From Candidatus Cloacimonadales bacterium (GTDB taxonomy: Bacteria > Cloacimonadota > Cloacimonadia > Cloacimonadales > TCS61), in the NCBI GenBank assembly GCA_030656075.1, contig JAUSOT010000145.1, positions 1-61,367 of the forward strand: a DNA stretch of 61,367 nucleotides, given 5' to 3'. Each line of letters starts with the position of its first letter. The stretch's first letter is position 1. Shown here in pieces: positions 28,811-61,229 of this stretch. The notes beneath the pieces are model-generated. The model was not told the origin of the DNA. It did no database searches and worked only from the letters and a program-made list of their open reading frames with translations. The translations under genes were made by a program, and so were the position numbers.

Positions 28811-30376
28811 ATGTACGTTTTATCGCGTGAAGAAATGTATGCCTTCGATAAATTTACCATCGAGCAGATCGGCATTCCAGCTAAAGAGCTGATGGAAAAA
28901 GCCGGCCGGGGTTGTGCGGAATTTATCAGGAATGAACTGCTTGGAAATCCGGAAGAAATGAAAGAAACCTTAAAAGTGTCAAGCGGGGAGAATAATTTGA
29001 AAGAGACGCTTTCAAGGTTCAAAGTTGCGATTTTTTGCGGAGTTGGAAATAACGGTGGTGATGGCTTCGTGATCGCTCGTTATCTGCGGGAGTGGAATTA
29101 CGAACCGGTCATCTTTCTGTTGGGAATTCCTGACAAAATGAACCCCGAAACCCGGGAAAATTATCAATCCTGCCGGCAGCTGGGAATCGCGATCATTTCT
29201 ATCGATAATGCCGATTTTGAATATGATCTTGCCAAATTCGATTTGATCGTCGATGCGATTTTCGGAGTTGGTTTGCAGGGCATCATCAAAGGTTGGCGAG
29301 CCGATCTGATCGAACGGATAAACAATTCGAACCCGATGGTGGTAGCAGTGGATATTGCCAGCGGTGTGGATGCCGATACCGGACAGGCGGAAGCAGCTAT
29401 TGAAGCAGATTTCACCTTAACAATGGCAAACTATAAATACGGACATTTACTGGGAAAAGGCCGTGAAAAAAGCGGTGAAACTTTGGTGGTTGATATTGGA
29501 ATTCCGGAAAATGTTTACGGGAAATTTCCACCCAAAGGTAAATTGATCACCGCGGAAAACGTGCTTTATCCGAAGCGATCCCGATTTTCCCATAAAGGAG
29601 ATTATGGCAGAGTGGGCATCATTGCCGGTTCTTCCGGTTACAGCGGGTCAGCAATCATGGCATCCCGTTCTGCTTTGCGAGCCGGTGCCGGGCTCATCAC
29701 GCTTTTTCATCCAGCCGGAATGGAACAGATTTTCGAATCACAACTTGTGGAAGTGATGACATATCCACTCCCCTTGGGAAGAGGAGATAAAGAGGGGTTT
29801 GGTAGATTCCTTGAAAAATTAAACACCATGGATGCTCTACTGATCGGTCCGGGAATCGGCACAAAAACTGAAATAAAAGATCTACTGACAGAAATTCTGG
29901 AAATCTGGCAGAAGCCACTTGTTCTGGATGCTGATGCTTTAAATATCATTTCCGCAAATCGAGAATTACTTGAGAAAATCAAGAGTAAACCTGTGATCCT
30001 CACTCCCCATATCGGTGAATTTGCCAGGCTCGCAAATCAAACTATTTCTGAAATTCAGAATGATCCCTTGAAAGCGCTGGATGAATTTATTGAAAAATAT
30101 AAATGTAATATATTATTAAAAAGTTCTACAACAATTTTTGCTGATGGCGACAGTTATCTGTTTAATACAACCGGTAATGATGGTCTTTCCACCGGTGGCA
30201 GCGGCGATGTGCTGTCCGGAATAATCGTTTCCTTCCTGGGACAAAAACTGAAACCGAAGGACGCCGCAATTTCTGCATCTTATTTGATGGGAGAAACTGC
30301 CGAAAAACTGGCAGGAATCCGCAGACCGGCTTCCATCATTCCGTCGGATATAATTGAGAATTTGTTTAGGTATTGA
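28811..30376 (+). CDS. nnr: Bifunctional NAD(P)H-hydrate epimerase/dehydratase
   Basis: A 521-residue cytosolic repair enzyme. The N-terminal YjeF/NnrE domain epimerises damaged NAD(P)HX (GVGNNGGDGFVIARYL at about 77-92). The C-terminal NnrD ribokinase-like domain dehydrates it with ADP or ATP (STGGSGDVLSGI at about 460-471, and HIGEFARL). AGGAGG precedes the ATG. Two parts of the gene look like intergenic repeats read in frame. At 28966-29018 an inverted-repeat element adds about 18 residues (TLKVSSGENNLKETLSRF) before the first strand. At 29768-29800 a CTCCCCTT...AGAGGGGTTT element encodes PLPLGRGDKEGF between core strands. Both domains otherwise appear intact. Confidence 0.93.
   Translation: MYVLSREEMYAFDKFTIEQIGIPAKELMEKAGRGCAEFIRNELLGNPEEMKETLKVSSGENNLKETLSRFKVAIFCGVGNNGGDGFVIARYLREWNYEPVIFLLGIPDKMNPETRENYQSCRQLGIAIISIDNADFEYDLAKFDLIVDAIFGVGLQGIIKGWRADLIERINNSNPMVVAVDIASGVDADTGQAEAAIEADFTLTMANYKYGHLLGKGREKSGETLVVDIGIPENVYGKFPPKGKLITAENVLYPKRSRFSHKGDYGRVGIIAGSSGYSGSAIMASRSALRAGAGLITLFHPAGMEQIFESQLVEVMTYPLPLGRGDKEGFGRFLEKLNTMDALLIGPGIGTKTEIKDLLTEILEIWQKPLVLDADALNIISANRELLEKIKSKPVILTPHIGEFARLANQTISEIQNDPLKALDEFIEKYKCNILLKSSTTIFADGDSYLFNTTGNDGLSTGGSGDVLSGIIVSFLGQKLKPKDAAISASYLMGETAEKLAGIRRPASIIPSDIIENLFRY
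28966..29018 (+). repeat. Inverted-repeat element inside nnr
   Basis: ACCTTAAAAGTGTC and GACGCTTTCAAGGT form imperfect 14-base terminal inverted repeats (two mismatches). The ends resemble the intergenic element at 23338-23391. It is read in frame. Confidence 0.55.
29768..29800 (+). repeat. CTCCCCTT...AGAGGGGTTT element inside nnr
   Basis: Resembles the intergenic element 28380-28424 and lies in frame in the NnrD domain. Confidence 0.5.
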
Positions 30377-30379
30377 GAA

Positions 30380-30573
30380 TGTTCGTTCAACCTTCCAGAT
30401 TGAATGAAATTTTAATCAAGACCATCCCTGGTCTTGACAGAGCACACCAGGATGGTGTAAGTTAACTCATGGTTCAACCAAGATGGTTGAACCAACAGAA
30501 AAATGACCATCTCTGGTCTTGGCAGAGCACACCAGGATGGTGTGCGTTAACTCATGGTTCAACCAAGATGGTC
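30380..30573 (+). repeat. Left RAYT-flanking hairpin array
   Basis: About 190 bases, matching the right array (31111 onward) with about five mismatches. Inside are two 85-base-period units beginning at 30420 and 30505. Each unit holds hairpins AAGACCA...TGGTCTT, CACACCAGGATGGTGTG and GGTTCAACC...GGTTGAACC; a TTCAACC...GGTTGAA-type hairpin leads the array. Confidence 0.9.
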
Positions 30574-30606
30574 GATGATCGGATTAATATTTTGAAGGAG
30601 ACCATT

Positions 30607-31107
30607 ATGGCATCACTCAGAGTATCAAAAGATAATGCTGACAGCATTTTCTTTGTCACTTTCACGATTCGCAGATGGTACTACATTTTTGACCGACATT
30701 CAAGATGGGATATTTTGCTTTCGGCTTTGAAATTTTATCAGGAAAATCAAAATTTGAAAATATATTCATGGGTCTTTATGCTCAATCACATGCATTTGAT
30801 TTTTCAGAGTGAAAATGCAATTAAATTCATTAATAGTTACAAGAGTTATACTGCTCAAAAAATAAGAGAAAATATTCAAGATACGGAACCGAAATTATTG
30901 AAATTATTCAAAACCGAAAAAGATTATCAAATTTGGCAGGGAAAAAATTATCCTGAAATTATCGAATCAGAGAAATTCTTTTTGCAAAAAGCAGAATACA
31001 TCATTACTAATCCGGTCAGGAAAGAATATGTTTATGAGCCGGAAGAATGGAAATTTTCATCTTCAAGTAGAATTCAATTGCTGAAATTAGAAAGTTTATT
31101 TGAATAG
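30607..31107 (+). CDS. REP-associated tyrosine transposase (RAYT, Y1/HUH family)
   Basis: A 166-residue single-strand transposase/nuclease of the Y1_Tnp (IS200-related) family. The HUH metal motif is in FMLNHMHLIF at about residues 56-65, and the catalytic Tyr region is in KAEYIITNPVRKEYV at about 134-148. The upstream in-frame extension to 30469 runs through repeat DNA and is rejected: GAAGGAG lies six bases before the ATG at 30607. The gene is bracketed by near-identical hairpin arrays, the usual setting of RAYTs, which process and spread REP hairpins but do not carry classical insertion-sequence ends. No passenger gene is present. The catalytic motifs look intact, so it may be active. Confidence 0.9.
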   Translation: MASLRVSKDNADSIFFVTFTIRRWYYIFDRHSRWDILLSALKFYQENQNLKIYSWVFMLNHMHLIFQSENAIKFINSYKSYTAQKIRENIQDTEPKLLKLFKTEKDYQIWQGKNYPEIIESEKFFLQKAEYIITNPVRKEYVYEPEEWKFSSSSRIQLLKLESLFE

Positions 31108-31110
31108 CGG

Positions 31111-31316
31111 TGTTCGTTCAACCTTCCAGGTTGAATGAAATTTTAATCAAGACCATCCCTGGTCTTGACAGGGCACACCAGGATGGTGTACGTTAACTCA
31201 TGGTTCAACCAAGATGGTTGAACCAACAGAAAAATGACCATCTCTGGTCTTGGCAGAGCACACCAGGATGGTGTGCGGTAACTCAAGGTTCAACCAAGAT
31301 GGTTGAACCAACAGAA
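31111..31316 (+). repeat. Right RAYT-flanking hairpin array
   Basis: A direct repeat of the left array with two 85-base-period units starting at 31151 and 31236. The second unit is complete here, including the full GGTTCAACCAAGATGGTTGAACC hairpin arms that are cut off in the left array. Confidence 0.9.
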
Positions 31317-31337: not shown

Positions 31338-32087
31338 ATGTATAAAAAAATTGGATTTTTATTCTTTGTATTGGTCGTTTTGATATTAGGTTGCAGCAAA
31401 TCAAAACCGGATGCAAAAGTTGATGAAATGCTCACAACTTCGATGAACACCGTCGATCAGATTGTTCAGGATGAGCTGGACAGGCTGCACACGATTGCCG
31501 AATTGAAAGATGTGCAGGAAGGAAACTGGGATTTCATCAAAGCAGCTCTCACCGAAAATGAAACAGACCGTAACGCTGCTCTCTACTGGTATTCTCTTCC
31601 CAGCGGCAGCTATTTCACATCCGAAAAAGACAAAGTGGAAGCTAATTTAAGCAGCCGCGGTTATTTTCCTGATTTATTGGCAGGCAAAGATGTGGTCGGC
31701 TATCCGATCGTGGGCAAAACCAGTGGCAGAAAATCTTTCGTAATCGCTGTTCCGGTGATAGTGGAGGAAGAAGTTTATGGCATTCTGGGCACATCGATCT
31801 ATCTGGATGAAATGTGGGATTTCCTGAACGACAAGCTGATCATTCCTGAAAAATACGATTTCTATGCCGTGAATACCATGGGCATCACTATGTTCGATCT
31901 GGAAACTAAAGACCATCTGCTTGCTAACACGTTAGAACAGACTTCTACCACCCTGGTGGAAGCGATCAAAGTTATCATCAGCACAGAGAACGGCACGGTG
32001 ACTTATAAGTGGAATGATAAAAAGAAAACAGCGGTTTACCGCACATCACCCGTCACCAACTGGCGTTATGTTATCTCCTATTATTGA
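31338..32087 (+). CDS. Cache-domain lipoprotein
   Basis: A 249-residue lipoprotein precursor (lipobox VVLILGC, Cys 19). The mature part has a long helix (VDEMLTTSMNTVDQIVQDEL) followed by a Cache/PAS-like sensor fold. The LYWYSLPSGSYFTSEKD strand region, GYPIVGKTSGRKSFVIAVPV and EVYGILGTSIYLDE are typical of extracellular dCache domains. There is no membrane-spanning output, so it resembles the tandem-Cache lipoprotein at 22261. GGAGG stands 6-10 bases before the ATG. The right RAYT array lies immediately upstream and may have displaced its original promoter. Confidence 0.85.
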   Translation: MYKKIGFLFFVLVVLILGCSKSKPDAKVDEMLTTSMNTVDQIVQDELDRLHTIAELKDVQEGNWDFIKAALTENETDRNAALYWYSLPSGSYFTSEKDKVEANLSSRGYFPDLLAGKDVVGYPIVGKTSGRKSFVIAVPVIVEEEVYGILGTSIYLDEMWDFLNDKLIIPEKYDFYAVNTMGITMFDLETKDHLLANTLEQTSTTLVEAIKVIISTENGTVTYKWNDKKKTAVYRTSPVTNWRYVISYY

Positions 32088-37444: not shown

Positions 37445-37595
37445 CTTGGTAGCTCACGGATTTGCACGGAAAAGCACGGATAATTAATCGACAGGATCAC
37501 AGGATAAAACGGGAAAACTAGGTGAACGTGAGACTCAACCTGGAAGGATGAACCAACTTTAGACATGAACAAACAACAAAAAAGATAAAAAAATG

Positions 37596-58349: not shown

Positions 58350-58378
58350 GGGGAAGCTTTCGAGCTTCCCCTTTTTTT
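58350..58378 (+). terminator. Rho-independent terminator of the receptor gene
   Basis: A nine-base stem GGGGAAGCT/AGCTTCCCC with a TTCG tetraloop is followed by seven T residues, 45 bases after the receptor stop. Confidence 0.93.
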
Positions 58379-58382
58379 GTGT

Positions 58383-58505
58383 TGGTTCAATCGTCTCGCT
58401 TGAACCTGATATTTTGCCGGATCGTCCCGATCTGAGATGAATCGAGTGATGGTTTTCGGGACGAAAACAAGAAACATTGCGGACTCCTCGGGACGAGAAG
58501 TCCAA
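58383..58505 (-). repeat. CGGGACG hairpin array, copy 2
   Basis: Hairpins GGTTCAA...TTGAACC, GTTTTCG-GGA-CGAAAAC and GGACTCCTCG-GGA-CGAGAAGTCC in the same order as at 53351. Confidence 0.85.
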
Positions 58506-58675
58506 CTTTCAAAATAAGAGTGAATTTAAAGAAATAATTCCGCTCATCTCTTGATTTGAAAAAGGGGCTGGGGGAGTTTGAATATCCAATCCGGAATTTC
58601 CAGAATGAAGTAAAAAATAAGAATATGTGAAAGATGCACTTCCCCCTAAATAGGGGGATCGAGGGGGTTGATTCT

Positions 58676-58927: not shown

Positions 58928-61096
58928 ATGAAAAAATTTATTTTAGTTCTTTTTCTGCTTTCTATATCAATTTATCTATTATCCGATCCACCTCCGCAGT
59001 ATGATCTGCGTGATGTGAACGGGGTGAATTATGTTTCCGGCGTCAGGAATCAAGGTCAATATGGAACCTGCTGGGCACATGGAGCCATGGCTTCCATGGA
59101 AGGAAACTTGTTGATGACCGGAGCCTGGGCAACAGCCGGTGAAACAGGTGAACCGGATCTTTCAGAAGCTCATCTGGATTGGTGGAACGGATTTAATCAA
59201 CATAATAACGACGACATAAATCCTCCCACCGGCAGTGGTCTGGAAGTTCACATGGGTGGAGATTATCGCGTAACGACAGCCTATCTGGCTCGCGGCGAGG
59301 GCGCTGTGAGAGAAATCGATGCGCCTTATTCCAATTTAGCAAATCCACCTGCCAGATGGATGCCTGATTATCATTATTATTACCCCAGAGATGTGGAATG
59401 GTTCAAACTTGAAGATGACCTTTCCAACATCGATGTCATCAAGCAGATCATCATCGATTACGGCGTTTTAGGAACCTGCATGTGCTATGATGGTTCGTTC
59501 ATCAACGGGCAATATAATCACTATCAGCCGCCAACCAGCCCGTTGGATCCCAATCATGCTGTGGCGATAGTGGGTTGGGATGATGCTCATGCAACCCAAG
59601 CTCCTTTGCCCGGTGCCTGGATCGTTAAAAACAGCTGGGGCAGTGGATGGGGTTACAGCGGATATTTCTGGATTTCGTACTACGATAAGCATTCCTGCCG
59701 CAATATTGAAATGGGAGCGATTTCCTTCCAAAACGTGGAACCGCTGGCTTACGACCATATTTATTACCACGATTATCATGGCTGGAGAGATACTCTCACA
59801 GTTGCCACGGAAGCTTTCAATGCTTTTGAATCTACCGGAACTCAGTTTATAGAATCTGTAAACTTTTTTACAGCCGTAGATAATGTAGATTACACCGTAA
59901 AAATCTATGATGATTTCGATGGGACAAACCTGAGCAACGAGCTTTCCACTGTGAGCGGCAGCTATGAACATGCCGGCTTGCATACGGTCGATCTTGATCC
60001 AATAGTAGTTGTAACCGATGGTGAAGATTTTTATGTTTATCTCTATCTTTCCACGGGCGGACATCCCTACGACAGGACTTCCGATGTTCCTGTTCTGCTG
60101 GGAGCAAATTACCGCACGATCGTGGAATCTTCCGCTAATCCCGGAGAAAGCTACTATAAAAGCGGTAATGACTGGTTGGATTTTTATGATTACAATGATC
60201 CGTCCGGTTTCCAGAATTCAGGCAATTTCTGCATCAAAGCGCTTTCGTTGGATGGAAGCGGTGGCATCATCGCTCCATCGAATCTGCAAGGTGAGATCAT
60301 CGATTTCAACAGCATTTATCTTACCTGGGATTGCGGTGAAAGAGATCTCTTGAGCTACAAAGTTTATCGCAATAACGAATTTATTGCCGAAGTGAGCAAC
60401 GTTCCCTTCCCCACCACAGCCTACCTGGATGAAGCTCTGGATGCCGGTTCCTACACTTATTATGTGGTGGCTGTTTATGATGCAGGCGAATCCGATCCGT
60501 CACCCAGCATAACTATTGAGTTGACACTTCCTGCTCCGCAGAACTTGGTTGCCAATCCGCAGAATCCCAACGTATCACTCATCTGGGATAACGTGGAAAG
60601 CAGCAGAGATTTTCTAGAATACGTTGTTTACAGAGATAACGTAGAAATTGGAACCACAGGATCACATTTTTATGTGGATCTGAATCTGCCGGCTGGAGTT
60701 TATGAATATTATGTAACTGCAAAATATTCCGGTGACTATCAATCCGAACCGTCTAATTCAGTTTCTGTGGAACTGACGGAAGCAGGCGGAATTTTACCCA
60801 ATGCAACTGAATTTACCGGAATTTATCCCAATCCATTCAATCCGACCACAACGCTTTCTTACAGTCTGAATGAATCGGGACATGTTCTGCTGGAAATATT
60901 CAATCTGAAAGGCCAGAAGATCACAACTCTGGTTGATAAAGTTCAGGATGCCGGTAATCACGCTGTTATTTGGAACGGAACGGATAAAAACGGCAACATT
61001 GCTGCCAGCGGCATCTATATTTCGCGCTTTTTGGTTGACGGCGTTGCACACTTCGGTAGATACACCAGCGTGAAAAAAGTAATTCTTTTGAAATAG
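58928..61096 (+). CDS. Secreted papain-like (C1A) cysteine protease with Fn3 and sorting domains
   Basis: A 722-residue precursor with a signal peptide (MKKFILVLFLLSISIYLLS). There is almost no propeptide, since the catalytic domain starts at once (YDLRDVNGVNYVSGVRNQGQ). The C1A active site is complete: Gln42, Cys48 (QYGTCWAHG), His210 (PNHAVAIVGWDD) and Asn235 (VKNSWGSGWG). After about residue 275 comes a lectin-like beta domain with ANPGESYYKSGNDWLD. Two fibronectin type III domains begin IIAPSNLQGEIIDFNSIYL and APQNLVANPQNPNVSLIW. The C-terminal sorting domain has IYPNPFNPTTT, FNLKGQKITTL and KKVILLK. It is predicted to degrade protein outside the cell or on its surface. Confidence 0.94.
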   Translation: MKKFILVLFLLSISIYLLSDPPPQYDLRDVNGVNYVSGVRNQGQYGTCWAHGAMASMEGNLLMTGAWATAGETGEPDLSEAHLDWWNGFNQHNNDDINPPTGSGLEVHMGGDYRVTTAYLARGEGAVREIDAPYSNLANPPARWMPDYHYYYPRDVEWFKLEDDLSNIDVIKQIIIDYGVLGTCMCYDGSFINGQYNHYQPPTSPLDPNHAVAIVGWDDAHATQAPLPGAWIVKNSWGSGWGYSGYFWISYYDKHSCRNIEMGAISFQNVEPLAYDHIYYHDYHGWRDTLTVATEAFNAFESTGTQFIESVNFFTAVDNVDYTVKIYDDFDGTNLSNELSTVSGSYEHAGLHTVDLDPIVVVTDGEDFYVYLYLSTGGHPYDRTSDVPVLLGANYRTIVESSANPGESYYKSGNDWLDFYDYNDPSGFQNSGNFCIKALSLDGSGGIIAPSNLQGEIIDFNSIYLTWDCGERDLLSYKVYRNNEFIAEVSNVPFPTTAYLDEALDAGSYTYYVVAVYDAGESDPSPSITIELTLPAPQNLVANPQNPNVSLIWDNVESSRDFLEYVVYRDNVEIGTTGSHFYVDLNLPAGVYEYYVTAKYSGDYQSEPSNSVSVELTEAGGILPNATEFTGIYPNPFNPTTTLSYSLNESGHVLLEIFNLKGQKITTLVDKVQDAGNHAVIWNGTDKNGNIAASGIYISRFLVDGVAHFGRYTSVKKVILLK

Positions 61097-61100
61097 CGGA

Positions 61101-61121
61101 TCGCAAACATCTTGTTTGCGA
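61101..61121. repeat. TCGCAAACA-TCT-TGTTTGCGA hairpin
   Basis: A perfect nine-base stem right after the protease stop. Read as complement its core is AACAAGATGTT, like the CAAGATG core of the RAYT array hairpins. Confidence 0.6.
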
Positions 61122-61131
61122 CGTAATCTCA

Positions 61132-61169
61132 AACCTTCCAGGTCTGCAAAAACCTGGAAGGTTTTTTTA
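61132..61169 (+). terminator. Rho-independent terminator of the protease gene
   Basis: Stem AACCTTCCAGGT (61132-61143) and ACCTGGAAGGTT (61152-61163), then a T run. The stem uses the same AACCTTCCAGG word as the first hairpin of the RAYT arrays. Confidence 0.88.
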
Positions 61170-61229
61170 AACCTCATGGAATGTTATTTGCTTCTTAGAG
61201 GCAAGTAAATAAAGGAAAAGGAAGGATAG

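Follow-up and report, generated by a model that had tools for sequence, protein, structure and literature searches.

A Probable REPtron in a Candidatus Cloacimonadales Genome: a Single-Copy RAYT Gene between Arrays of a Hairpin Quartet

Introduction

Does the small transposase gene carried by this 61,367-nt stretch of DNA from a Candidatus Cloacimonadales bacterium (the window) form one system with the two near-identical hairpin arrays between which it lies, and to which kind of system does it belong? The biochemistry of RAYTs rests on a few GTAG systems, from gammaproteobacteria. An earlier note, made from the letters of the window, had read the locus as a RAYT transposase between near-identical arrays, a likeness that it took to suggest recent duplication or gene conversion and an active system. 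The analysis described here indicates that the locus is very probably a REPtron, in which one copy of an HUH/Y1-class RAYT is paired with a hairpin family of REP type that is cognate to it. The coordinates of the features are shown in Table 1.

Table 1. Location, strand and supporting evidence of the features of the window.
Feature	Position	Strand	Evidence or composition
Upstream neighbour yjeF/nnr, NAD(P)H-hydrate dehydratase/epimerase	28811..30376	+	Pfam Carb_kinase and YjeF_N
Left array	30380..30575	+	A-B-C'-D' then B-C'-D'; model R1, 119 bits
RAYT / TnpAREP gene	30607..31107	+	166 aa; NF047646 and Pfam Y1_Tnp
Right array	31111..31316	+	A-B-C'-D'-B-C'-D', all complete; model R1, 121 bits
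One quartet unit	31111..31226	+	Alignment, four-helix covariation, foot analysis
Downstream neighbour, dCache-domain lipoprotein	31338..32087	+	Pfam dCache_1
RAYT-less quartet, sister TCG-core family	58378..58512	+	Model R1, 57.6 bits

The RAYT Gene

The HUH/Y1 transposase of the earlier note, with its 166 residues, was confirmed: the protein scored 92.5 bits against NF047646 (REP_Tyr_transpos, NCBIfam; cut-off 80) and passed Pfam Y1_Tnp. Its HUH motif, NHMH (residues 60-63), was intact, the candidate catalytic Tyr131 lies within YIITNP, and the Y---NP helix motif was present. In an alignment with two relatives, N60, H61, M62, H63, Y131, N135 and P136 were unchanged; the HUH/Tyr alignment is thus not defective. 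The ATG at 30607 was taken as the start of the gene because it is preceded by GAAGGAGA; a start at 30469, in an upstream extension of the reading frame, was rejected, as that extension runs through the array.

The closest named relative was found in a Cloacimonadota MAG (69% identity), and a search for relatives in phage records found none. The genome carrying the window (G000, a 3.2 Mb draft) holds one copy of the gene; its nearest paralogue, 58% identical, is located on contig 177 beside an array with its own distinct core. Judged by dN/dS values of 0.03-0.18 (obtained for three pairs of sister RAYTs, some with saturated dS, other pairs dropping out through saturation or too few differences), the sister RAYTs are evidently under purifying selection. 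An AlphaFold2 model of the protein, built from three sequences, reached a pLDDT of only 38.

An active insertion sequence of the IS200/IS605 type, bounded by the arrays and transposing as a whole, would share the HUH/Y1 protein and would agree with the differences between occupied and empty sites among genomes, but it was judged extremely improbable. The protein has Y---NP and not Y---Q, scored 20.9 bits against the IS200 model (cut-off 55), and is encoded by a single copy with the nearest paralogue at 58%; on these grounds membership in IS200/IS605 was rejected. The supposed ends, moreover, are seven-hairpin arrays that also exist without the gene.

Structure of the Arrays

The direct repeats, at 30380-30575 and 31111-31306, were 196 nt each and 97% identical (6 mismatches), close to the about 190 bases and about five mismatches first reported. 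The claimed 85-base period was measured as 85 nt in each array, and within the right array 9 of 85 sites differed between one period and the other. Seven hairpins were counted in the right array, above the minimum of three strong ones in the earlier note; the left array breaks off within its final hairpin, at 30573-30575. Folded as single-stranded DNA, the right array gave -57.5 kcal/mol (z -9.8) and the left array -46.4 kcal/mol (z -6.1), and no shuffled sequence folded as well as either.

The unit was a quartet, which agrees with the statement that the arrays exceed ordinary single REP hairpins in complexity. In the right array it consists of an outer hairpin A with a GTTC foot, an inner hairpin B, an inverted inner hairpin C' and an inverted outer hairpin D' ending in CAAC, with A and B oriented one way and C' and D' the opposite way; elsewhere in the same genome quartets measured about 115-125 nt. 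Across nine units, compensatory changes in the four helices filled 27 two-sided cells versus 12 expected, with a covariation of 0.27 versus 0.11 that was reached in none of 500 shuffles. Half units nearly always retained one outer and one inner hairpin, and therefore the basic REP appears to be a same-orientation double hairpin and the quartet an inverted pair of such REPs. In full dispersed units A-B faces C'-D', and by this arrangement the quartet of two facing double hairpins is to be regarded as a BIME- or REPIN-like element.

Strong folds between two same-strand genes might also be expected of RNA-level elements (terminators, mRNA stabilisers or binding decoys) to which the adjoining RAYT would be incidental. 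This is very unlikely, since a search of the arrays against Rfam returned nothing above the gathering cut-offs, T-runs were absent after the hairpins, and the type of array tracks the RAYT clade across genera. Sub-threshold matches to CsrB (23 bits versus 71) were set aside as too weak.

Variants of the unit were also observed. In three genomes a second palindrome, such as TCCCCGATTAAATCGGGGA, was present within the loop of the outer hairpin, the outer stem being intact (L193, with two copies, L102 and L080/L214). At L224 (5104-5565), L227 (3844-4269) and L230 (2473-2703) the interior hairpins were swapped for other palindromes, ACCCAAAAACAAAGTTTGGGT, GGAAGTTTAACTTCC and TGTTCCTAAGTTCAACTTAGGAACA, as though members of further hairpin families had been inserted mid-unit.

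Copies without the Transposase

Genome-wide counts rest on the covariance model R1, for which both strands were reported and only the best candidates were scored. The model gave 133 strand-hits in the own genome; it is near-palindromic, and most places were matched on both strands. Sorted by eye, the units comprised an ACC family, that of the window, and a TCG family, the sister family. The ACC family had roughly ten complete or almost complete units, the window's own included, besides degenerate ones; the TCG family had about forty units and is linked to the RAYT paralogue of contig 177. Units were mostly intergenic: 9 of 44 overlapped long ORFs, some of these ORFs being probably spurious, versus 547 of 720 random stretches from the same loci. 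These dispersed copies lacking a transposase bear out the reading of the locus as a RAYT with a cognate array. Weak matches to the quartet model at 37476-37563 and 61093-61213 of the window represent degenerate half units or chance.

Foot and Guide Geometry

The core of the sister family was TCGTC[CT]CGA, and its outer hairpins begin with GTTGG. Their feet had G at position -11 in 92% of cases and the next base outward was almost free of information, and therefore GTTG marks the end of the element in this family. Inner hairpins of the same family carry GTTT, one base farther from the loop; outer feet of the window family were GTT[CG]. Among 150 RTC-loop hairpins from sampled loci of the own genome, GTT preceded the loop by exactly 12 or 13 nt in 94; an extra peak of GTT at 8 nt corresponds to GTTCAA of the stem itself. 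The same two distances were found in the window family (core ACCATCCTGGT) and in relatives from other genera. On this sequence pattern, it is proposed that the basic REP carries a putative GTT guide, located 12 nt (outer hairpin) or 13 nt (inner hairpin) upstream of the RTC loop.

The GT[AG]G foot of canonical GTAG REPtrons was absent. In most subclasses the published REPs carry GT[AG]G, subclass 2.6 and class 3 being exceptions, and the guide of E. coli TnpAREP is contacted by W94, Q95, E100, H101 and R104 (PMC6006769). Alignment with that protein (4er8) showed that W94 and Q95 are kept and the other three are replaced (E100P, H101E, R104E). The GTAG-specific enzyme of S. maltophilia did not cleave a GTTG substrate (PMC8266576), and the use of GTTG would therefore have to be a property of the present clade. 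By the published guide rule, A3G4 or T2G4 selects CT or CA (PMC8266576); were this rule to hold here too, GTTG would be expected to favour CA.

Bracketing of RAYT Loci by Direct Repeats

Flanking direct repeats were detected at 39 of 43 RAYT loci examined and, with the same cut-off, at none of the 38 other genes of the window; chance is therefore excluded for the bracketing in the window. The rayT gene of E. coli MG1655 is bracketed likewise (94% over 84 nt), which makes this a known type of arrangement. Since bracketing is usual at RAYTs, near-identity of the repeats alone is no sign of recent activity. For the earlier note this meant a divided outcome: RAYT, cognate array and complexity stood, and the two further claims gained no support. 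Near-identity does not by itself imply recent duplication or gene conversion, like bracketing being present at the same 39 loci and in E. coli; as to an active system, the genome has one copy of this RAYT, such bracketing is usual, and neither circles nor de novo insertions were observed.

That the likeness of the arrays stems from a recent local duplication or gene conversion, and is uninformative on transposition, has a chance somewhat short of even. Identity between the arrays of the window is 97%, versus only 75-80% for the best dispersed units compared with them, and 9 sites differ from one tandem 85-nt period to the next. Set against this, like bracketing occurs at nearly every RAYT, and such an event is compatible with a REPtron and not exclusive of it.

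The own genome contained seventeen RAYT loci, one of them apparently frame-broken (contig 211), nearly all located between direct copies of distinct repeat families. Where RAYT-like genes had the NHYH motif (L029, L030, L027, L026 and L031), they lay between direct repeats 110-178 nt long (87-99%), most of which had no strong short-loop hairpins. Published subclasses 2.1 and 2.3, which have NHYH motifs, are said to be without REP-like sequences.

Gain, Loss and Position among Genomes

In a genome of the same genus (G001), yjeF is followed after a gap of 23 nt by the Cache gene, with neither RAYT nor array; the array-RAYT-array segment was therefore gained in the window or cleanly lost in G001. 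GAA is present on both sides of the insertion, and divergence of the empty site in G001 is too great for a target-site duplication to be judged.

The neighbourhood of the sister RAYT, yjjG-phnD-phnC-phnE-HAD, was conserved and the position of the RAYT in it varied: before yjjG in G001, between phnD and phnC in G024 and G030, after a second copy of phnD in G034, and after phnE in G000. Arrays without RAYT were located at yjjG-phnD in G000, at phnE-HAD in G001 and G030, and at phnD-phnC in G034 and G032, and thus persist at sites where relatives have array-RAYT-array. At L227 (G034, contig 161) the second copy of phnD lies between phnE and the RAYT, which suggests a local duplication beside the arrays.

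Both these shifts and the long direct repeats at 39 of 43 loci would agree with an LTR-like cassette, in which homologous recombination between arrays serving as landing pads moves or removes the RAYT, the transposase being perhaps inactive today. This explanation is considered rather unlikely, as it leaves unexplained how short units came to be scattered among dozens of intergenic sites and why hairpin core and RAYT clade covary strictly. Doubtful to a greater degree is a combined proposal, namely that the arrays are attachment or landing sites of a relocating, LTR-like RAYT cassette and that the RAYT reads a GTT guide set a constant number of bases from the loop, a mode of recognition unlike that of the GTAG systems.

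Co-Diversification of RAYTs and Arrays

RAYT identity was correlated with the similarity of the flanking hairpins over 36 loci (Mantel r 0.68, p 1e-4) and within the clade (r 0.85, n = 12, p 1e-4). All 17 RAYT pairs with at least 70% identity shared hairpins, versus about 1% of pairs below 30%. When 59 genomes were searched, eight had 13 or more quartet hits and were exactly the eight with the window RAYT clade, the remaining genomes having 9 or fewer; because these genomes are related, they do not represent eight independent events. The paralogue with its own core and the Mantel correlations point to one full-length gene per type of REP, the two co-evolving.

RAYTs of a Deltaproteobacteria MAG (L071) and of a Cloacimonadota-family genome (L212) were 50% identical and were flanked by the same unusual hairpin, GTTCAGGTT..AACCTGAAC. 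By these sequences, a transfer of RAYT with array between phyla is possible.

Proposed Mechanism

For the REPtron favoured here, the mechanism is modelled on TnpAREP, for which strand-specific recognition of folded single strands, foot-guided cleavage and rejoining have been described (PMC8266576). By analogy with the enzymes of E. coli and Stenotrophomonas, the RAYT most likely binds the single-stranded hairpin through its loop, stem and GTT foot. Tyr131 would then nick beside the foot and rejoin the ends, and quartet units would thereby be excised, spread and amplified. Arrays outlast and outnumber the RAYT gene, which would reside in whichever local array it last entered. Comparison of the sites suggests that recombination between direct arrays can delete the RAYT, leaving a solo array.

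Comparison with Known Systems

By its sequence features, the system is to be placed with the RAYTs and REPtrons and not with the IS elements. IS200/IS605 elements likewise have an HUH/Y1 nuclease and subterminal hairpins with guides; they are multi-copy autonomous insertion sequences, whereas the window RAYT is single-copy. In a literature search of limited coverage, no published account of such a system in Cloacimonadota was found, which leaves its absence unproven; atypical structures near group-5-like RAYTs were mentioned in the literature found and none was dissected.

The E. coli REPtron (rayT/yafM with BIME-2 arrays; Bertels group 2, Quentin subclass 2.2) resembles the window in that near-identical direct BIME copies bracket the RAYT and inverted REP pairs are dispersed. 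It differs in its GTAG foot and bulged single hairpins, versus a GTTG/GTTT foot and double-hairpin REPs, and its TnpAREP has E100, H101 and R104 where the window RAYT has P, E and E. Judged by foot and protein motifs, the system is evidently not a member of the canonical GTAG REPtrons (subclasses 2.2, 2.4, 2.5, 2.7 and 2.8).

In TIRtrons the genes are RAYT-like, and the palindromes at their flanks, some of them double and some dispersed, bear no relation to GTAG REPs (PMC3733652). They share with the window the non-GTAG palindromes beside a RAYT-like gene, but their flanks are described as terminal inverted repeats, whereas those of the window are direct copies of a quartet array.

The yjjG-phnDCE region, where the RAYT shifts and arrays persist in its absence, offers natural material on how RAYTs and REPs spread and are lost. 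Within one genome, two paralogous RAYT/array pairs share their geometry (GTT, 12 or 13 nt, RTC loop) and have different cores; with these paired cores and relatives at graded distances, the specificity code becomes directly testable.

The TnpAREP of subclass 2.6 / Bertels group 5, mostly from Bacteroidetes, has atypical, non-GT[AG]G flanks with copies elsewhere in the genome (PMC6006769). Compared by published description, this looks, tentatively, like the closest class: size (about 179 aa versus 166), WQ, SS near the C terminus and atypical flanks are similar, and two motifs deviate, NH[LIV]H and YIH[QN]NP versus NHMH and YIITNP in the window RAYT, the phylum being different too. New with respect to the E. 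coli system are the quartet unit, the GTTG/GTTT foot and the replacement of three of the five guide-contact residues.
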